Positions 71-14,100 of a stretch of 32,372 bases of DNA are shown here, piece by piece. Under the pieces are notes generated by a model. That model ran no database searches and was not told where the DNA came from. It worked only from the letters and a program-made list of their open reading frames with translations. Every line of letters starts with the position of its first letter. The first letter of the stretch is position 1. The stretch is from NCBI GenBank assembly GCA_018303505.1, contig JAGVYA010000014.1:1-32372 (forward strand). The letters are read 5' to 3'. This stretch comes from Candidatus Woesearchaeota archaeon. GTDB taxonomy: Archaea; Nanobdellota; Nanobdellia; Woesearchaeales; GW2011-AR4. Made by a program: the position numbers and the translations under genes.

Positions 71-274
71 GCGCAAAGCGAAACCCGTGGTAGTTCACAG
101 AAAAAAATAAGAATAGAAGATACGCTTGGCGGGGAAAAGATAGCTATTGAATTTGACAAAGGATTGAAATCAGCAAGAGCCTCTAAAGAATCTGGAGAGC
201 AGATTGTTGTTGATACTCTATTTTGGTTTGCGTGGGCTGCGTTCCATCCTGATACTGAGTTGTATAAAAAATGA
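71..274 (+). pseudogene. C-terminal fragment of a DUF3179-like protein, upstream frame broken
   Basis: Open frame ending at TGA 272-274 reads ...IRIEDTLGGEKIAIEFDKGLKSARASKESGEQIVVDTLFWFAWAAFHPDTELYKK; the FWFAWAAFHPDTELY ending is typical of DUF3179. An in-frame stop at 68-70 lies in a hairpin-rich segment. The stop overlaps the next ATG (ATGA at 271-274). Confidence 0.55.
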
Positions 275-2742
275 GGAAATTAATTGCTGTATTACTACTC
301 TTTATTCTTTTTCCCCCTTATACTTATGCCTATTACCACCACACTTCTCCAATCAAATGGTATGAATATAACCAAAAGACTTTTGATGTGGCAAAAACAG
401 AAGATAAGCCTATTTTTATGCTTGTAACAGCAGTTTGGTGTTATTGGTGCCATGTTTATAGAGACGAAACTTTGCATCAGCCAGAGATTGTCGATTACAT
501 AAACAAAAACTTTATTCCAGTTTTTGTTGACGCTGATAAAAGACAAGACTTAACAAGGCAGTATTTAGCTGGAGGATGGCCATCAACTGTTATTTTCTCG
601 CCTGATGGAAGGGAAGTTTCCCGAATTAATGGGCATATAAAGAAGCAAGATTTGCTTAATTATCTGGAAAAGATTGTTAAATTCTTCGATACAAATGAAC
701 TTCCAGCCAATTACACTAAAAAAGATTTAATTCTAAGAACATACAAAGTAATTCCCGGAAAATCTGAATTGCAGCAATTGACCGATAACTTTCCTTTTAT
801 TCTTCTTCAGAGTTATGACGCCGCATATGGCGGTTTTGGCACGGGACAGAAATTTCCAAGCGCTGCAGCTTGGGAATACATTCTTTATGTTTATGAGAAA
901 ACAGGCAACAAGGAATTTCTTGATGCTGCAACTAATACGTTAAATCATATTTACAATGATAATTACATCGATGATTGGAATAAGCCACTTGATTTAGGCG
1001 AGTTTAATGGATTAAGAAAGTATGATGAAGAAAGAAAATTTCAAGGAATTTATGATCCTGTTGAAGGAGGCTTTTTCAGGTATGCAACAAGAAGAGACTG
1101 GAGCATACCTCATTATGAAAAGATTCTTGATGTTAATGCAGAATTAATAAAACTTTATCTTCATGCATACAACATCACAAAGGACCCAAAATATAAAGAA
1201 ATTGCTCAAAAGAGCCTGCAATATGCAATTAACAATCTTTACGATAAAGCAAATGGTGGCTTTTACGGCTCGCAAGATGCTGGGCATGAGATTTATTACA
1301 GACAAAAACCAGAAGAAAGATTCCAAAATTCAAAAGAACCAATACCAATAATTGACAAAACAAAATATTCTGATTTGAATGCCCCAATGGCTATTACTTT
1401 TTTCTATGCTGCTGATATTTTGCAAAACAAAACATATGAGGATATTGCAGTAAAAAGTATGGAATTTTTTAGAAAAAACATGCTGACTGAAAATGGAATA
1501 CTGCACTTTTACGATGAAAAGGGTGCACAATTAAATGGCTTGTTGTTGGATAATGCTTACATGAGCCTTGCGTTTGTTGAAGCATACGAACAAACTGGAG
1601 ATGAAAAGTACAAGGATGCTGCATTGCAATTAATTAACTTTTCATTAAAAAAGCTTTATGATGGCAAGACAGGAGCTTTCTTTGAAAGAAACAGCACGGA
1701 CAGGCATTACTATGCAGGAGACGAATATTTTTTAGGTGAAATACCTTATTCTGGAAATAGTGCAATGGCATTGGCATTAGTTAAATCTTATGATTTAACC
1801 AAAAATAAAAATTACTTAGACACTTCAAATACTATAATTGGCTACTTTATTCAAGGAATTGGAGATTTTGATAATGCTGCAATGCAAGCTTTAACTGCCG
1901 AATCTGTATTAAGAAATAAAAACGATTTAAAGAATACAGTTGAAATAGTAGAGAGCAAAGAAGAAATCAAATTAGCACAAAATCTACAAATTAATTGGCT
2001 ATTATTTTTGGTTGCTTTTATTGTTGGCTTACTAAGCTTTTTAAGCCCATGCACTTTGCCTATATTACCAGCATATTTTGCTTATACATTCAAATCGGAA
2101 AGAAGGAAATTGATTCTAAACAGTTTGGCTTTCTTTTTAGGATTAGCTTTGGTATTTTCAATTCTTGGTATGACATCTACTTTTATAGGCTCTTTTTTAA
2201 GGAATAATAGTCTGCAAATAGGCAGATACCTTGGCGTAGTTGTTATTGTATTTGGCGTATTCGTAATATTGGGAAGAGGATTTCAATTATTCAGAATCAA
2301 GCAAAAAACCTCTCACACTGTTGCAGGTTCCTTCTTGTTTGGCATAATTTTCGGCATTGGGTGGACACCATGCATTGGTCCTATATTAGCCAGCTTGTTT
2401 ATCATAGCTTCTCAATCATCAACAGCATTTACAGGAGGTATTTTGTTATTGCTTTATGCTCTAGGATTAGCAATTCCATTGATACTTTTGTCATTTTTCT
2501 TTGATAGGCTTGACCAGCAGGGCAGATTCTGGAAATTTCTGCAAGGCAAAGAATGGAAAATTAAAATATTCAAAAAAGAAATATATCTGCATTCTACAAG
2601 TTTAATAAGCGGTTCTTTATTAATAATAATTGGTTTGTTAATGTCGTTGGGATATTTATATGCCTTTAATCAGTTAGTAAGAACCACTTCTTTCCAGAAA
2701 TGGATTTTTGGATTTGAGGAGAAGTTGTTTAATTTGTTTTAA
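271..2742 (+). CDS. Thioredoxin-domain (DUF255/YyaL-like) protein fused to a C-terminal CcdA/DsbD-type transmembrane domain
   Basis: N-terminal signal and AVWCYWCHVYRDE (CxxC, DUF255-like), long alpha-barrel-like middle, then LLSFLSPCTLPILPAYFAYTF and FGIGWTPCIGPILASLF, the two CcdA Cys-Pro helices. Confidence 0.85.
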   Translation: MRKLIAVLLLFILFPPYTYAYYHHTSPIKWYEYNQKTFDVAKTEDKPIFMLVTAVWCYWCHVYRDETLHQPEIVDYINKNFIPVFVDADKRQDLTRQYLAGGWPSTVIFSPDGREVSRINGHIKKQDLLNYLEKIVKFFDTNELPANYTKKDLILRTYKVIPGKSELQQLTDNFPFILLQSYDAAYGGFGTGQKFPSAAAWEYILYVYEKTGNKEFLDAATNTLNHIYNDNYIDDWNKPLDLGEFNGLRKYDEERKFQGIYDPVEGGFFRYATRRDWSIPHYEKILDVNAELIKLYLHAYNITKDPKYKEIAQKSLQYAINNLYDKANGGFYGSQDAGHEIYYRQKPEERFQNSKEPIPIIDKTKYSDLNAPMAITFFYAADILQNKTYEDIAVKSMEFFRKNMLTENGILHFYDEKGAQLNGLLLDNAYMSLAFVEAYEQTGDEKYKDAALQLINFSLKKLYDGKTGAFFERNSTDRHYYAGDEYFLGEIPYSGNSAMALALVKSYDLTKNKNYLDTSNTIIGYFIQGIGDFDNAAMQALTAESVLRNKNDLKNTVEIVESKEEIKLAQNLQINWLLFLVAFIVGLLSFLSPCTLPILPAYFAYTFKSERRKLILNSLAFFLGLALVFSILGMTSTFIGSFLRNNSLQIGRYLGVVVIVFGVFVILGRGFQLFRIKQKTSHTVAGSFLFGIIFGIGWTPCIGPILASLFIIASQSSTAFTGGILLLLYALGLAIPLILLSFFFDRLDQQGRFWKFLQGKEWKIKIFKKEIYLHSTSLISGSLLIIIGLLMSLGYLYAFNQLVRTTSFQKWIFGFEEKLFNLF

Positions 2743-2802: not shown

Positions 2803-3150
2803 ATGTTAAAAAAGCCATATAAACTATTTTTCGGAACTTTGGCGAATAATCAAAGATTAGAGATTATAAACTTGCTTAGAAAAAGGCCAAGAAATGTGAC
2901 TCAAATCTGCAAAGAATTAAAGTTTAACCAGACCACACTATCTCATAATCTTGCAATATTAAAAAAATGCAGCTTTGTTTTTGCTAAGAAGAATGGAAAA
3001 GAAAGAGTTTACTCTCTTAATGCAAAGACCATCAAGCCTTTAATGGAACTTATTGATAATCACGCAGAAGAGTTTTGCAAATATCTCTGCGGATGTAAAA
3101 CTAAAAATAATGGAGGGAAATATAATGGCAAAAAGAGAACCTTGCTGTAA
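2803..3150 (+). CDS. ArsR-family winged-helix transcriptional regulator with Cys-containing C-terminus
   Basis: NNQRLEIINLLRKRPRNVTQICKELKFNQTTLSHNLAILKKCSFVFAKKNGKERVYSLN; C-terminal CKYLCGCK. TATA-like catttatatata about 30 nt upstream. Confidence 0.85.
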   Translation: MLKKPYKLFFGTLANNQRLEIINLLRKRPRNVTQICKELKFNQTTLSHNLAILKKCSFVFAKKNGKERVYSLNAKTIKPLMELIDNHAEEFCKYLCGCKTKNNGGKYNGKKRTLL

Positions 3151-3259
3151 TGGCGGAGTATGCCCTTCGTGCGATTGCTGTGTTTGTATTTGTACAAAGG
3201 AGTTAAAGAAACTACTCTCACCAGAAGCTAGAAAGTTGCTATTGAAAGAACTTGCTTGA
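3125..3259 (+). CDS. Small Cys-rich protein (44 aa), probably metal-binding
   Basis: In-frame ATG at 3125 preceded by ggaggg: MAKREPCCNGGVCPSCDCCVCICTKELKKLLSPEARKLLLKELA; overlaps the ArsR 3' end. Confidence 0.7.
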   Translation: MAKREPCCNGGVCPSCDCCVCICTKELKKLLSPEARKLLLKELA

Positions 3260-4368: not shown

Positions 4369-5061
4369 ATGGTTTTTCACTATTTGTCATTGATATTGGC
4401 AGGAATCCTTAGCTTTGCTGATTATATAACAGAGCATATTTTCTCAGAGAAGCTAAGAAAAAATGCAAAACTTATCTCATTTTCAGCAGGTGCTGCGATA
4501 TCATACATAATTTTGAATTTGTTTCCGGAAATATCAACGTTTGCTTTAATTGATGGAAAAAGGATTTTTCTTTATGCTTTGCTTGGATTTGTTTCATTAA
4601 ATTTGATAGAGCAATATATCTATAAAGAAGTAGGAAAGCTAAAAAGCCCATTTAAATACCACAAAAACATTCATGTCACCTATTTTTTTATATATAATTT
4701 TTTTATAGGAGCGGTTTTAACAATCTTTGCATCCAAAGGGTTGGTTGCAACACTGCTTTTTTTTGTGCCATTCCTTCTTTACATAATAGCTGAGATTCTG
4801 CCTCAGGAGTTTGAATTCAAAAGCAGCACTTTTAAAGTGTTTTATTCAATGGCGCCTTTCTTCGGAGCTATTGTTGGAATTAATTACATAGAGTTTATAG
4901 CATCTGTTTTTGGCGAATTAATCTCTTTCGTCACAGGAACTTTGCTTTACATTGTTATAAGGGAGTCTTTGCCAAGCGATAAAGCTGAAAAACCTTTGTA
5001 TTTTTTAATAGGAGTTTTATTTTATGCTTTAATCATATTTATTAGCTGGAATTTAATATGA
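4369..5061 (+). CDS. ZIP-family-like multi-pass membrane protein
   Basis: 230 aa, about 7 hydrophobic helices, SFSAGAAISYIILNLFPEI and ILPQEF-like motifs resembling ZIP-type proteins. Confidence 0.5.
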   Translation: MVFHYLSLILAGILSFADYITEHIFSEKLRKNAKLISFSAGAAISYIILNLFPEISTFALIDGKRIFLYALLGFVSLNLIEQYIYKEVGKLKSPFKYHKNIHVTYFFIYNFFIGAVLTIFASKGLVATLLFFVPFLLYIIAEILPQEFEFKSSTFKVFYSMAPFFGAIVGINYIEFIASVFGELISFVTGTLLYIVIRESLPSDKAEKPLYFLIGVLFYALIIFISWNLI

Positions 5062-5205
5062 ATACTCTGCTTGATTAAAACTCATGTTTAACCCTTAAAA
5101 GATAGCTTGTTATAAATGTCAAAATAACATAAAAAAGAAAGATTATTAAATCTGAAAAGCATACAAAACCCAGATTTGTGAATAAAATCAATGGAGGTCA
5201 CCAAA

Positions 5206-5232
5206 ATGGGAAAAGGAAAAGGCTGCTGTTAA
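5206..5232 (+). CDS. Candidate micro-ORF encoding MGKGKGCC
   Basis: ATG GGA AAA GGA AAA GGC TGC TGT TAA preceded by GGAGGT at 5193-5198; TATA-like ttattaaat upstream; first ORF ahead of glutaredoxin. A near-identical second copy lies at 12180-12215. An alternative in-frame ATG at 5191 gives MEVTKMGKGKGCC. Confidence 0.6.
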   Translation: MGKGKGCC

Positions 5233-5261
5233 TTTTTTATATTGATTGAGGTGAAATAGAA

Positions 5262-5504
5262 ATGGCAAAAGCAACAAAAGTCAAGATTTACACTACAAGC
5301 ACGTGCCCTTGGTGCATTAAAACAAAGGAGTTTTTTAAAGCCAATAATGTCAAGTACGAGGAAGTCAATGTTGGAGAAGATGAAAAAGCAAGAAATGAGA
5401 TGTTCGAGAAGTCTGGGCAATTTGGAGTGCCTGTAACTGATGTTAACGGCACAATAATTGTTGGCTATGACAAGGAAGCTTTAAAAAAGGCGCTTAGCAT
5501 ATAA
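5262..5504 (+). CDS. Glutaredoxin / NrdH-like redoxin
   Basis: KIYTTSTCPWCIKTKEFFKANNVKYEEVNV...FGVPVTDVNGTIIVGYD; CPWC active site, cis-Pro VPV; SD gaggtg. Confidence 0.92.
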   Translation: MAKATKVKIYTTSTCPWCIKTKEFFKANNVKYEEVNVGEDEKARNEMFEKSGQFGVPVTDVNGTIIVGYDKEALKKALSI

Positions 5505-5515
5505 GGCTGCTTTCG

Positions 5516-6754
5516 ATGGAAAAAGACAATGTTTGTATTGATTGCTACAACCAGATAGACAAGGTTTCAAAACTACTTAATCTTGGACAGGCAGAGCTTG
5601 ACATTTTGACAATACCAAAAAGAATTCTGACTTTCAGCTTTCCTGTCAAGCTTGATTCCGGCGATATAAGATATTTTACTGGATACAGAGTGCAATTTAA
5701 TGATGCCAGAGGCCCGACTAAAGGAGGCATAAGGTTTCATCCAGAGGTTAATCTTGAGGAAATCAAGACACTTGCTTTTTTGATGACTTTGAAGTGCGCT
5801 GTTGTAAATCTGCCTTATGGAGGAGCGAAAGGAGGCATTATGGTTGAGCCAAAGCGCTTTTCAGAAGAAGAGATTGAAAAGATGAGCAGGGGCTATATAA
5901 GAGAGATTAATGGCTTTATAGGAGCTGATATTGACATTCCAGCTCCTGATGTTAATACTGATGCTAAGATAATGGCTTGGATGCTTGACGAATATGAAAA
6001 GCTTAAAGGCAGGCATGCTCCAGCTACAATAACAGGCAAGCCTATTGCATTGGGAGGCTCAAAAGCAAGGGAATTCTCAACTTCAATTGGTGGGGCTTAT
6101 GTTTTGCAGGAGCTTGCTGATAAGAAGCCAAAGAAAACAACAGTTGCTGTTCAAGGATTTGGCAATGTAGGAATGAACATTGCAAGAATTTTGAATGAAT
6201 GGGGCTATAAAGTGATTGCGGTTAGTGATTCAAAAAGCGGAATTTATAATAAAAAAGGGCTTAAGATTCAAGATGTGATAAAACACAAAGAAAAAACAAG
6301 CAACCTTTCCAAGTTCAAAAATACAAAAGAGATTTCAAACGAAGCGTTGCTTGAGCTTAAGACAGATGTTCTTGTTCCAGCTGCTCTTGAAGACCAGATA
6401 ACAAAGAAGAATGCTGACAAAATCAAAGCCAAGCTTATTCTTGAGATGGCGAATAGGCCAATAACCCCAGAAGCTGATGACATATTGCTTGACAAAAACA
6501 TTTTTGTAATGCCAGACATACTGGCTAATGCTGGTGGCGTAGTTGTTTCTTATTTTGAATGGGTGCAAAACTCTCAGAATTTCTATTGGAGCGAAAAGGA
6601 AGTGCTTGAAAGGCTTAAAACCTATATGACAAATGCTGTCAAGGAGCTTTCCAAAGTATGCACTGATTTCAAGTGCGACATGCGTGCATCCCTCTATATT
6701 AACGCTGTTAAGAAAATTCTTGAGGCTGAAAGATTGAGGGGGAATTTGAGGTAG
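5516..6754 (+). CDS. gdhA: Glutamate dehydrogenase (Glu/Leu/Phe/Val dehydrogenase family)
   Basis: GYRVQFNDARGPTKGGIRFHPEVN, PYGGAKGGI, DIPAPDVNT, VAVQGFGNVG, ILANAGGVVVSYFEWVQN. Confidence 0.95.
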   Translation: MEKDNVCIDCYNQIDKVSKLLNLGQAELDILTIPKRILTFSFPVKLDSGDIRYFTGYRVQFNDARGPTKGGIRFHPEVNLEEIKTLAFLMTLKCAVVNLPYGGAKGGIMVEPKRFSEEEIEKMSRGYIREINGFIGADIDIPAPDVNTDAKIMAWMLDEYEKLKGRHAPATITGKPIALGGSKAREFSTSIGGAYVLQELADKKPKKTTVAVQGFGNVGMNIARILNEWGYKVIAVSDSKSGIYNKKGLKIQDVIKHKEKTSNLSKFKNTKEISNEALLELKTDVLVPAALEDQITKKNADKIKAKLILEMANRPITPEADDILLDKNIFVMPDILANAGGVVVSYFEWVQNSQNFYWSEKEVLERLKTYMTNAVKELSKVCTDFKCDMRASLYINAVKKILEAERLRGNLR

Positions 6755-8189: not shown

Positions 8190-10808
8190 TTATGCTTTCC
8201 ATGTTTTCATCACCAGACTGTTGCTTACCACAGATACAGACGAAAATGCCATTGCTGCTCCTGCAATTATTGGATTTAATAAAAATCCGAAGAACGGAAA
8301 CAATAATCCGGCAGCTATCGGAATACCAGCTATATTGTAGAAAAATGCCCAGAACAAATTTTGCTTTATTTTTTTAATTGTATAAGAGCTTAGCTTTATT
8401 GCTGTTACAACATCTCTCAAATCATTTTTTATAAGAATAATCGAGCCTGTTTCAATTGCTACATCTGTTCCGGCTCCAATTGCAATGCCAACATCAGCTG
8501 CTGCAAGCGCAGGCGCGTCATTGATGCCATCTCCGACCATAGCAACTATCTTTCCTTGTTCCTGCATTTTCTTGATTTCCCTTTCCTTGTCCTGCGGAAG
8601 GACTTCTGCAACTACCTTATCGATTCCGACTTGTGCGGCAATTGCTTTTGCAGTTCTTTCATTATCTCCTGTAATCATCACAACTTCCTTGCCTAGCTTG
8701 TGCAGTTCTTCAACCGCTTGTTTTGAATTTTCCTTCAAAGTGTCTGCAATTGCAATAAGCCCTGCAATCGATTTATTTAAAGCAAGAATTATAGTTGTCT
8801 TTCCCTGCTCCTCAAGCTTTTTTATTTTTTCTTCTGCGTCATCGCTTATTTTTATATTGTGTTCGTGCATCAATTTGTCGTTTCCAATCAAAATGTTGTA
8901 ATTCTTGTAATTTGCAGTGATTCCTTTTCCGTGGATTGCTTGAAATTTGCTTGCTTCACTTATTGCAATTTGCCTGCTTTTTGCGAGATTTACGATTGCT
9001 TCTGCCAGAGGGTGTTCAGAGCTTTTTTCTGCTATGGCTACAAATTTCAGCACGTCGTTTTCAACATATTTCTTGTCAAGAACTGCAATATCTGTAACTT
9101 CGGGTTTTCCTTTTGTCAAGGTTCCTGTTTTATCGAAAACAATAGTTGTAAGTTTGTGGGCTGTTTCAAGCGCCTCTGCATTCTTAATCAATATGCCGTG
9201 CTCTGCACCTTTTCCAGTGCCGACCATTATAGCTGTAGGAGTTGCCAAGCCAAGAGCACAGGGGCAGGCTATTATCAATACAGCAATAAATATGGTAAAT
9301 GCAAAAATAAATGGATTGAATGTAAGATTTAGAAAACTTGGAGCGATGAAATACCAGAATAAAAATGAGATTACAGCAATTAATATAACAACTGGAACAA
9401 ATATGCTTGAAACCTTATCAGCTAGTCTTTGTATCGGCGCTTTTGAACCTTGCGCATCCTCAACAAGCTTTATGATTTGCGCAAGCATAGTGTCGCTTCC
9501 GACTTTTGTTGCCTCAACTTTGAAAGCTCCGCTTTTGTTTATTGTTGCTCCAATAACTTTATCATTTATATTCTTTGACACAGGCATGCTTTCTCCTGTC
9601 AACATTGATTCGTCAACATGAGAAGAGCCGGATATCACAACTCCGTCTGTCGGAATTTTCTGCCCTGGCTTGACAATGAAAACATCTCCTATCTGCAATT
9701 CATCTATTGGAATTTCTACTTCTTTGCCATTTCTTACTACAATAGCGGTTTTTGCCTGCAATCCTATAAGCTTTCTAATTGCTTCAGACGCTTTGCCTTT
9801 TGTAAGCGCTTCCAGATATTTTCCAAGCAGTATGAAAGTTATAATTATTGCTGAGGTGTCATAGTAAACATTTCCCGGAAATGTTTTTGGAAGAAAGGTT
9901 GCAAGCACGCTGTATATGTAAGCGGCGCCTGTGCCTACTGCAATCAGCGTGTCCATATTCGCTGTCTTGTTCATCAAACCTATGTAAGTGCCAGTGTAAA
10001 ATCTGTAGCCTAGAATAAGCTGTACTGGTGAAGCGAGAATCAGCAACACAAAATTCTGGTAAGGTATTATTATTTTAAACCATTCAGGAAATGATAAAAT
10101 AAAAATTGGAATGCTTAAAATAAATCCTGCTATAACTTCCCACTTTAATCTTCTTATTTCTCTTTGCCTCGCTTCTTTTTCCCTGTCATTGCTCAAGCCA
10201 GTCTGTTCAATTGCATCATAACCGGCATTTTTTATTGCCCTCTTTATTTCTTCAACGCTTGTCTGTTTAGGGTCATAACTGATAAAAGCATTTTCGTTTA
10301 TGTACAAATCTTTTGAAATAATTCCGTTGACAAGATTAAGAGCATCTTTAACAGTGCCAAGACAATGCGGATTGTCCATTCCGATGACTTTAAGCTTTAA
10401 CTCTACAACATTTGCAGAAGCGGCTGATTCAACAACTTTGTAGCCCGTTTTATTAATGGCTTTTTTCAATGATTCTTCATCAACTTGATATTTATCGAAT
10501 TCAACAGTTGCTTTTTCAGATGCGTAATTCACGCTCGCTCTTTTTACTCCTTTTGTTTTTGACAATGCCTTTTCGATTGTGTTTGCGCATGAAGCGCAAT
10601 GCATTCCTGAAACTGAAATTGTGCATTTTTGCATATTTGAATCGGACTTTGCTTCTGATGCGGGTTTCTCGTCGGCTTTTCCTGTGAATTTTTCATAACA
10701 GCTTTTGCTGCAGAAATAATAATTTTTGCCATTCTTCACAGTACTGAATTTAGTCTTTTTTGCATCAATTTCCATTCCACATACCGGGTCTTTTGCCATT
10801 TCCATCAC
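8190..10808 (-). CDS. copA: Copper-type P1B ATPase with N-terminal YHS/TRASH-like domain and two HMA-like domains
   Basis: [11 protein letters not shown]...[30 protein letters not shown] motif [47 protein letters not shown]. Confidence 0.95.
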
Positions 10809-11885: not shown

Positions 11886-12161
11886 CTAAAACTTTTCTCC
11901 AAGCCAATTATAAATCAAGGCAAACACATAACCAACTACTGCACTGCTTAAGGCTACTACTATAAGCCCTATCACAGACTTTGCCAATGTCATATTCTTT
12001 GTTGCTATGCTTGAAATGTCAATGCCATGCACAAAATAATTGCTAACAGTTACTATTGTTTGCAGTGGAAAAATCGCTACAAAAGCAAGACAAACTAAAT
12101 ACACTAGCGCTGTTGTAATGCCTACCGACAAAGCCACAACATTTTTGTTTAACTTTTCCAT
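11886..12161 (-). CDS. Small membrane protein, DUF5676-like
   Basis: 91 aa, MEKLNKNVVALSVGITTALVYLVCLAFVAIFP..., two or three helices; SD GGAGG upstream. Confidence 0.65.
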   Translation of the reverse strand: MEKLNKNVVALSVGITTALVYLVCLAFVAIFPLQTIVTVSNYFVHGIDISSIATKNMTLAKSVIGLIVVALSSAVVGYVFALIYNWLGEKF

Positions 12162-12179: not shown

Positions 12180-12215
12180 TTAGCAACATCCTTTGCCTTT
12201 TTTTCCTTTTCCCAT
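12180..12215 (-). CDS. Candidate micro-ORF encoding MGKGKKGKGCC
   Basis: Minus strand TAATTAGGAGGTGTAAA ATG GGA AAA GGA AAA AAA GGC AAA GGA TGT TGC TAA; the SD begins right after the stop of the SDR gene, and the next gene has its own SD. Confidence 0.65.
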   Translation of the reverse strand: MGKGKKGKGCC

Positions 12216-12229
12216 TTTACACCTCCTAA

Positions 12230-12988
12230 TTATCTTGCAGTCCATCCTCCGTCAACAACAAGATTGTGACCTGTTATGAAGCTTGACTCGTCTAATGCAA
12301 GGAAAACAGCTGCATTTCCAATATCCTCTGGCTGCCCAAACCTTCCAACTGGAGTGTTTTCCAGCAGAATTTTTTTAGTTGCTTTATCATTAAGCATTGC
12401 TTTTGTCATATCTGTAACTATAACACCAGGGTCAATGGCGTTTACGGTTATGCCATAGTTCGCACAATCAAGAGCCACTTCCCTTGTTAATTCTGTTACC
12501 CCGCCTTTTGAGGCGCAGTAAGCGCTTATGCCTGGAAAACCAACTAAGCCTGCAATTGAAGAGATATTAATTATTCTGCCTCCTTTGCCTTGCTTGAGCA
12601 TTTGCTCCACAGCATACTTTGTGCAAAGAAAAACTCCTTTTAAATTGACGTCCATTTGCTTGTCCCAGTCTTTTTCTGTTAATGTAGTTACAGTCCCAGA
12701 TACAAGAATTCCTGCATTATTGACGAGAATGTCAACCTTGCCAAACTTTTTTACAGCTTTTGCCACTAAATTTTTTACATCCTTTTCCTTAGAAACATCT
12801 GCAACAACAAAAATTGCATCACTGCCAAGGCTTTTTATTTCTTCAACAACATCATCTGCGTCTTTGCTATGCTCATGCGAATTAACTACAACTTTGCAGC
12901 CTTCTTTAGCTAATGCGATTGCTACGCCTCTTCCAATGCCTCTGTTTGAGCCTGTAACAATTGCAACCTTGCTTTCCAATCTTTTCAT
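12230..12988 (-). CDS. SDR-family oxidoreductase, 3-oxoacyl-ACP reductase (FabG)-like
   Basis: VTGSNRGIGRGVA, LVNNAGI, ISSIAG, YCASKGG, DPGVIVTDM, VDGGWTAR. Confidence 0.92.
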   Translation of the reverse strand: MKRLESKVAIVTGSNRGIGRGVAIALAKEGCKVVVNSHEHSKDADDVVEEIKSLGSDAIFVVADVSKEKDVKNLVAKAVKKFGKVDILVNNAGILVSGTVTTLTEKDWDKQMDVNLKGVFLCTKYAVEQMLKQGKGGRIINISSIAGLVGFPGISAYCASKGGVTELTREVALDCANYGITVNAIDPGVIVTDMTKAMLNDKATKKILLENTPVGRFGQPEDIGNAAVFLALDESSFITGHNLVVDGGWTAR

Positions 12989-13051: not shown

Positions 13052-13525
13052 TCATAAATAGACTAGAATTATCAAGCCTATGACAAGCACCAGGGATAAA
13101 AAATTAAGAAAACCCCAATATCCAAGGCCATATCCTGAACCCATCATGCCATATCCAAAATTGTAGTTCATCATGTTCATCATTCCTCCACTCATCATAT
13201 TTATATTTTCATTACAATAAAGTCTTCTTGCCATATTGATATGAGTCTGCCTTAATGTCGCGGAGCCTTCACCACCCATCATCCTGTCCATAAGTTCATG
13301 CGCTTCTCCAGGATGCATCTGCTCCATCAAATAATCTCCAAGAATTTCTAGCTGGTTTTCTGTCAACTGCGAGCATGGAGTTTTTGCGTCAATAAGTTTC
13401 TTAGCTTCTGCAAAATCCTCAGTATGGGCTAGAACAAGGTTAATGCTTAAAGCAAAAATCAAAAAATACAATAAACCTTTTTTCAAATTAATACATTCCA
13501 ATTTTGAAAATCTATCTTTTGGCAT
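13052..13525 (-). CDS. Secreted/membrane Met- and Gly-rich protein, possible copper binding
   Basis: Signal-like FLIFALSINLVLAH; MHPGEAHELMDRMMGG; MMSGGMMNMMNYNFGYGMMGSGYG; C-terminal TM. Start at 13525 chosen over 13546 from the TATA-like AAGTTTAAATAG position. Confidence 0.65.
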   Translation of the reverse strand: MPKDRFSKLECINLKKGLLYFLIFALSINLVLAHTEDFAEAKKLIDAKTPCSQLTENQLEILGDYLMEQMHPGEAHELMDRMMGGEGSATLRQTHINMARRLYCNENINMMSGGMMNMMNYNFGYGMMGSGYGLGYWGFLNFLSLVLVIGLIILVYL

Positions 13526-13587
13526 ATCCGTTTTCGTAATTATCACGACTATTTAAACTTTTCTATTTATATCGGATTTTGATATAT

Positions 13588-13608
13588 CGAAATTGTATAG
13601 CAATTTCG
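13588..13608. promoter_or_regulatory. Inverted repeat CGAAATTG-TATAG-CAATTTCG (candidate operator)
   Basis: Perfect 8-bp arms in the divergent intergenic region between the Met-rich gene and the PadR-TRASH gene. Confidence 0.5.
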
Positions 13609-13628
13609 GATGTTCGAGAATATATCTA

Positions 13629-13646
13629 TTTTCGACATATCGAAAA
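13629..13646. promoter_or_regulatory. Inverted repeat TTTTCGA-CATA-TCGAAAA (candidate operator)
   Basis: Perfect 7-bp arms just upstream of the TATA-like gatatttatata of the PadR-TRASH gene. Confidence 0.5.
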
Positions 13647-13686
13647 AAAGAAAGATATTTATATAGGTTTAATTTTAGGATTTTTT

Positions 13687-14100
13687 ATGGCAGATGTAAA
13701 AATAACCAATATGCTAAAATTCTATACACTATGCCTCTTGGCAACCGGTCCAAAACATGGCTATGATTTAATGAAAGAACTGGAAGAAAAGCTTGGAAGA
13801 AAAATAAGCTCCAGCAATGTATACCCCTTTTTAAATATTTTAAGAAAGAACAAATTAATAAAATTTGACAAAGTTGGAAAGAGGGACAAGAAAACATATT
13901 ATTTAACAACAGAAGGAAAAAATTTCACCAAAGGCATGTTCAATAAATTTGGGGATTTGATTGATGTCGCTATCGAGCCGAGAATATCAACATGCCCATG
14001 CGGTTGTAGGATTTATTCTGGAGGTTATACTGGAAAAATCAAAGGAAAAATGGTGAAGTTTTGCTGCTCGCATTGCGCAAAAACTTATAAGTCAAAATAA
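13687..14100 (+). CDS. PadR-family regulator with C-terminal TRASH-like metal-binding domain
   Basis: LCLLATGPKHGYDLMKELEEKLGRKISSSNVYPFLNILRKNKLI; CPCGCRIYSGGYTGKIKGKMVKFCCSHCAKTYKSK. ATG 13687 fits better than 13579. Confidence 0.8.
   Translation: MADVKITNMLKFYTLCLLATGPKHGYDLMKELEEKLGRKISSSNVYPFLNILRKNKLIKFDKVGKRDKKTYYLTTEGKNFTKGMFNKFGDLIDVAIEPRISTCPCGCRIYSGGYTGKIKGKMVKFCCSHCAKTYKSK

Follow-up and report, generated by a model that had tools for sequence, protein, structure and literature searches.

The gene of a YruB-family glutaredoxin on a 32,372-nt contig of a Candidatus Woesearchaeota archaeon (JAGVYA010000014.1; this whole stretch is hereafter called the window) is preceded, 30 nt ahead of its start at 5262, by an open reading frame of eight codons, which raises the question whether so short a frame is a gene and, if so, what its product would do. 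The letters at 5193-5262 agree with the preliminary description, which had reported here the micro-ORF MGKGKGCC (ATG GGA AAA GGA AAA GGC TGC TGT TAA, 5206-5232) behind a strong Shine-Dalgarno (SD) sequence and a TATA-like element; another in-frame ATG is located at 5191 (MEVTKMGKGKGCC) and has no SD sequence. The like ORF MGKGKKGKGCC, which had been noticed on the other strand in another operon, was found at 12215-12180, between the SDR oxidoreductase and DUF5676 genes (Table 1).

Table 1. Coordinates of the two micro-ORFs and of the surrounding features in the window.
Feature	Position	Strand	Remarks
Membrane protein F6	4369..5061	+	No Pfam match; conserved upstream neighbour
TATA-like TTATTAAAT	5143..5151	+	Upstream of micro-ORF 1
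SD GGAGGT of micro-ORF 1	5193..5198	+	
Micro-ORF 1	5206..5232	+	MGKGKGCC, 8 codons + TAA
T6 tract	5233..5238	+	Archaeal terminator-like; immediately 3' of micro-ORF 1 stop
Glutaredoxin, YruB family, CPWC	5262..5504	+	Pfam PF00462; TIGR02196 over cut-off
Glutamate dehydrogenase	5516..6754	+	PF00208/PF02812; conserved downstream neighbour, synteny
Cu-type P-ATPase	8190..10808	-	YHS + two HMA domains; in the gene cluster of micro-ORF 2
DUF5676 2-TM protein	11886..12161	-	PF18926; follows micro-ORF 2, gap about 19 nt
Micro-ORF 2	12180..12215	-	MGKGKKGKGCC, 11 codons + TAA
SD GGAGGT of micro-ORF 2	12221..12226	-	
SDR oxidoreductase	12230..12988	-	Precedes micro-ORF 2, gap about 15 nt
PadR regulator	13579..14100	+	PF03551; divergent from copper operon

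Genome-wide counts were obtained by pattern searches. In the 1.3-Mb genome, GK..GCC followed by a stop codon was matched by micro-ORFs 1 and 2 only, and the reversed control pattern by nothing. Peptide genes, one to three each, are present in 17 of 20 congeneric genomes; none was found in G008, G012 and G019, with assemblies 71-81% complete. The peptides of the relatives include MGKGKSKGCC, MGKDKMKGKGCC, MGKGKMKGKGCC, MEKGKKGKGCC, MGRGKGCC, MGKVKSKGCC, MPKGKGKGCC, MSKGKGKGCC, MGKNKGGCC and others, each of this set being preceded by GAGG, and a wider search added MGKGKGKECC, MRKGKSKGCC, MRKEKGKGCC and MGRGKGQCC. There is also a second form ending in CGC (MAKGKGKGCGC, MTKAKGKGCGC); both the CGC and the QCC variants retain two near-terminal thiols. 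The 47 tabulated loci encode 27 distinct peptides of 8-12 residues with two Cys each, which end in GCC or sometimes in QCC, ECC or CGC. Throughout the order, an SD sequence followed by M.K...KGCC and a stop gave 32 matches in 25 of 362 genomes, in frame in all but one, and the reversed control gave 0 matches in the same genomes. The scan of 85,488 species returned 62 matches, 31 archaeal (by title, 30 from Woesearchaeota and one from Pacearchaeota) and 31 bacterial; in-frame micro-ORFs made up 29 of the archaeal matches, all 29 from Woesearchaeota, versus three of the bacterial ones. Since the archaeal matches are in frame while the bacterial ones mostly are not, and the reversed control is empty, the family is a Woesearchaeal trait and not a product of chance, as had been surmised from the two ORFs alone. 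It is densest in the window's own family. The two micro-ORFs can thus be recognised as two copies of a previously unrecognised family of micropeptide genes in Woesearchaeales, equipped with consensus ribosome-binding sites, and its conserved, translated-looking character is well supported; a literature search, with most subscription papers outside its reach, returned nothing on such peptides. A broad search with GGNTGYTGYTRR for long proteins that end alike was swamped by chance matches and could not be used. On a viral contig (L155, 5108-5149), an SD-led ORF MAKKKKGKKKGCC is located between phage genes and may be either a chance occurrence or a captured relative.

Synonymous-site conservation had been named earlier as a check on these ORFs. 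The codon alleles of the three alignable sub-types differ by 20 synonymous versus 5 non-synonymous changes, and only 16-21% synonymous would be expected for random codon changes; therefore, the comparison shows selection on the peptide genes at the amino acid level. Ser is retained via AGC, AGT and TCA, and stop codons of all three kinds are used.

In the window and its relatives, the glutaredoxin locus has the order F6 membrane protein, peptide, glutaredoxin, glutamate dehydrogenase (setting A), with thioredoxin reductase adjoining in several such loci. In the alignment of 10 orthologous glutaredoxin leaders, the SD sequence, the ORF, the SD and start of glutaredoxin and the TATA-like element are conserved, and nothing else: the GGAGG column block occurs in 10/10 loci and TTATTAAAT in seven, its place being occupied in the other three by a SEC-C microprotein gene. 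The TATA-like element is probably the promoter of the micro-ORF 1/glutaredoxin transcript. The peptide stands at the orthologous position in 13 of the 16 congeneric glutaredoxin loci examined, and a 14th copy, of the CGC form (G009, contig 17), lies beyond these 16. Homologous loci devoid of the peptide, which would have spoken against the preliminary description, do exist, as the ORF is absent before the sole glutaredoxin found in G010 and in G008; in G010, the promoter before glutaredoxin is retained, the ORF is lost and two peptides remain in the copper operon. In four genomes (L032, L036, L048, L130), a SEC-C type microprotein is encoded directly upstream of the micropeptide; microproteins of this type have 22-47 residues and K/G-rich starts (e.g., VAKKGKLCSCGSGKPAGECCGA), and they form a tandem with the micropeptide ahead of glutaredoxin. 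Small single-TM proteins with the start M..CP(I/M)(Q/E)GC... recur upstream of glutaredoxin in further genera of the family (L135, L139, L144, L145).

Micro-ORF 2 belongs to a copper operon divergent from a PadR regulator (setting B), the C-terminus of which gives a weak TRASH match (PF24273, below its cut-off). This operon comprises the genes of the F4 Met/Cys-rich membrane protein, SDR, DUF302, OsmC, DUF5676, F3, a YgaP-like protein and the Cu ATPase, and the peptide slot varies, being found before F4, after SDR, DUF302 or OsmC, or just before the ATPase; the setting extends to further families within the order (L067, L074, L166, L167, L168). An exported-looking protein conserved in the copper operon (window 13052-13546, minus strand) carries the Met-rich stretch MMSGGMMNMMNYNFGYGMMGSG and has no Pfam or NCBIfam match; it is a possible candidate for an extracytoplasmic copper binder. 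Convergent ORFs (family F14) had hinted that some copies of the peptide gene come last in their operon; as these ORFs run antisense to the YgaP-like gene, the argument was dropped. In a mer-like operon (setting C, L051), the gene of MerA, which scores over the NCBIfam cut-off and has the C-terminus ACCVE, is followed after 45 nt by MGRGKGCC and then by DsbD and an HMA-like protein, while the remaining neighbourhoods are scattered (setting D).

Copper/thiol genes (Cu P-type ATPase, PadR-TRASH regulator, DUF302/DUF5676, glutaredoxin, thioredoxin reductase, MerA, DsbD) lie no more than 4 kb away in 43 of the 47 loci, the Cu ATPase at 24, PadR-TRASH at 18, glutaredoxin at 16, thioredoxin reductase at six and MerA at three of them. 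Thus, the proposal of a conserved vicinal-dithiol peptide linked to redox and metal genes, for which a search near such genes in relatives had been suggested, finds strong support in the family found in relatives, the synonymous variation and the neighbourhoods. The place in the operon shifts (first; after DUF302, OsmC, SDR or MerA; before the Cu ATPase) and the peptide stays constant. At least 15 of the 47 copies lie inside an operon, 3-52 nt behind another gene; several are the first in an operon divergent from PadR; the genes downstream vary by locus, the next one being in some cases hundreds of bases away. Annotation does not pick up genes of 8-12 codons. This family is nevertheless clearly selected as coding sequence and linked to genes for copper, mercury and thiols, and the order that harbours it has become known almost exclusively through metagenomes.

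On balance, we hold it to be probable, if only just, that these genes are translated into trans-acting dithiol micropeptides, whose cargo would be Cu(I)/Hg(II) or disulfides. The constant chemistry consists of two thiols, a free C-terminus and a Gly/Lys cationic tail, and a diffusible dithiol seems the most economical reading, because this two-thiol tail is constant and the neighbours include the Cu ATPase, MerA, glutaredoxin/thioredoxin reductase and DsbD. The Gly/Lys stretch would be flexible and positively charged, and the two C-terminal Cys would form the ligand or redox part, by which the peptide, soluble in the cytosol, would bind the soft metal ions Cu(I) and Hg(II). The Cu P-ATPase or MerA would then receive the ion from the metal-loaded peptide, and/or the neighbouring glutaredoxin and thioredoxin reductase would return the oxidised peptide to its reduced state; in its workings the peptide would be akin to a minimal metallothionein, to glutathione or to a detached MerA C-terminal Cys-Cys tail. 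The lysines may lower the Cys pKa, or they may let the peptide attach to acidic partners or to the membrane. It counts against such a carrier that 8-12 residues with two thiols would be a very small metal ligand, prone to peptidases, as do the leader- or attenuator-like poly-T tracts considered below, the glutaredoxins of G010 and G008 lacking the peptide, and the three genomes (G008, G012, G019) in which no peptide was found. If the carrier is real, it would provide a testable answer to the question of glutathione replacement in such cells and would illustrate the small size at which a gene can still function in metal or redox chemistry.

In a wider form, which is tentative and which we rate as less than probable, the ribosome-made K/G...CC dithiol would be the soluble thiol cofactor in some archaea that lack a clear glutathione pathway; glutaredoxin/thioredoxin reductase would cycle it, and CopA and MerA would receive Cu(I)/Hg(II) from it. 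Glutamate-cysteine ligase PF04262 was found in none of the 20 congeners, and PF04107 gave weak partial matches in 4 of 20 and none in the window's genome, so that the peptide is a possible substitute for glutathione. A review of archaeal thiols reports scattered GshA matches in DPANN and no archaeal matches to the GshB/GshF families (PMC7278568).

The main rival, which we regard as unlikely, is a cis-acting leader peptide: the ribosome would pause on reaching the final pair of Cys codons, or would do so on the nascent peptide, in response to Cys-tRNA or to free thiol/metal status, and would thereby control read-through of the poly-T tract or translation of the next gene. A T-run of at least six within 60 nt follows 18 of 32 ORFs versus 44 of 367 genes (12%; p about 2e-8), and since such tracts terminate transcription in archaea, the ORF may often form its own short transcript or an attenuator. 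The peptide is, moreover, the first ORF behind the conserved TATA-like element in most glutaredoxin loci, and the copies heading operons divergent from PadR likewise agree with a leader. The polycysteine attenuator ORFs of mycobacteria, reportedly described by Canestrari in 2020 (as cited in PMC13236596), would be a precedent. Another one is the copper uORF CruR (PMC9426467). However, the operon-internal copies are hardly placed as leaders, the genes downstream are not constant among loci, and eight leaders fold no better than their shuffles (z from -0.3 to +1.5). A Cys-attenuator would have a run of Cys codons with the other residues free and needs no conservation of Gly and Lys, whereas these ORFs have only two Cys codons and conserved Gly/Lys; G010, with its promoter before a glutaredoxin devoid of the peptide and two peptides still in the copper operon, points the same way. 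A nascent chain of 12 residues stays within the ribosome tunnel, which makes a folding sensor of the CruR kind impossible. Among the roles suggested in the preliminary description (metal chaperone, thiol substrate of glutaredoxin, leader), the two that imply a trans-acting dithiol fit better than the leader, although the poly-T tracts keep the latter alive. A leader, if true, would add a new device to the metal/thiol regulation of archaea.

Two further explanations were weighed. The peptide may be the precursor of a modified one (RiPP), or it may be secreted, as a signal or as a metallophore; RiPP pathways include short Cys-terminated precursors, and a methyltransferase gene adjoins two of the copies, but the scores of this methyltransferase against RiPP models stay far under the cut-off, and neither a modifying enzyme nor an exporter is conserved across the loci, which leaves this explanation very improbable. 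Scarcely probable at all is an mRNA element in which the SD sequence and the purine-rich short ORF have no other task than to bring ribosomes to the gene that follows, the peptide itself being idle. At several loci, a purine-rich coding sequence with a strong SD does lie just upstream of the next SD, yet some ORFs are hundreds of bases ahead of the next gene, and third positions vary synonymously while the amino acids hold. In addition, K, G, E and R each have purine-only codons, and the peptide bodies contain 102 K and 69 G versus 4 E and 2 R; purine-rich mRNA thus fails to explain the pattern, because E and R are nearly absent, and an explanation by mRNA only was rejected on this bias and the synonymous variation.

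On the features compared, none of the known families fits the micropeptides. The C-terminal Cys pair of MerA is flexible and passes Hg(II) to the active site within one protein (PMC10587081); the likeness, a Cys-Cys at a flexible C-terminus, is seen side by side in the mer-like operon, whereas the Cys-Cys of the micropeptide is on a separate product of 8-12 residues, mostly near copper or glutaredoxin genes. With glutathione and other low-molecular-weight thiols, the micropeptides would share the character of a small soluble thiol with glutaredoxin/disulfide-reductase neighbours and no clear glutamate-cysteine ligase, and they differ in being a ribosomally encoded dithiol instead of an enzymatically made monothiol, their role as a glutaredoxin substrate being putative. 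CruR is an exported protein of 145 residues that requires a CXXC about 45 residues from the RAPP arrest motif (PMC9426467), a spacing for which 8-12 residues leave no room; like CruR/CutF uORFs and mycobacterial polycysteine ORFs, the micropeptide genes are small Cys-bearing ORFs near copper or cysteine genes, but they have a variable operon position and conserved Gly/Lys instead of the CruR set of DUF2946, CXXC, C-terminal RAPP and a place at the operon head, and the arrest motif is found in no peptide. The SEC-C microproteins (CxCGSGKxxxxxCC zinc site) resemble them in being rich in K and G at the start and in having a Cys-Cys close to the C-terminus, whereas the micropeptides have the terminal CC only, without the first CxC half. 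Metallothioneins and short metal-chelating peptides are likewise gene-encoded, Cys-based and linked to Cu/Hg handling, and the gene context is consistent with metallothionein-like binding of Cu(I)/Hg(II)/Zn(II) by the micropeptides; the latter differ in having two Cys in 8-12 residues and no multi-Cys array, the metallothionein pattern of CxC/CC clusters in 25-75 residues is seen in none of the 27 distinct peptides, and no sequence relation was shown.

Two other frames of interest occur upstream in the window. An SD-led Cys-rich ORF of 44 residues, MAKREPCCNGGVCPSCDCCVCICTKELKKLLSPEARKLLLKELA (3125-3259, plus strand), is metallothionein-like in looks and overlaps the final part of the gene for an ArsR-type regulator (2803-3150). 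In a large fusion (271-2742, plus strand), one part is thioredoxin-like/YyaL-type and another is a membrane portion of the CcdA/DsbD kind, as judged by eye from the translation.
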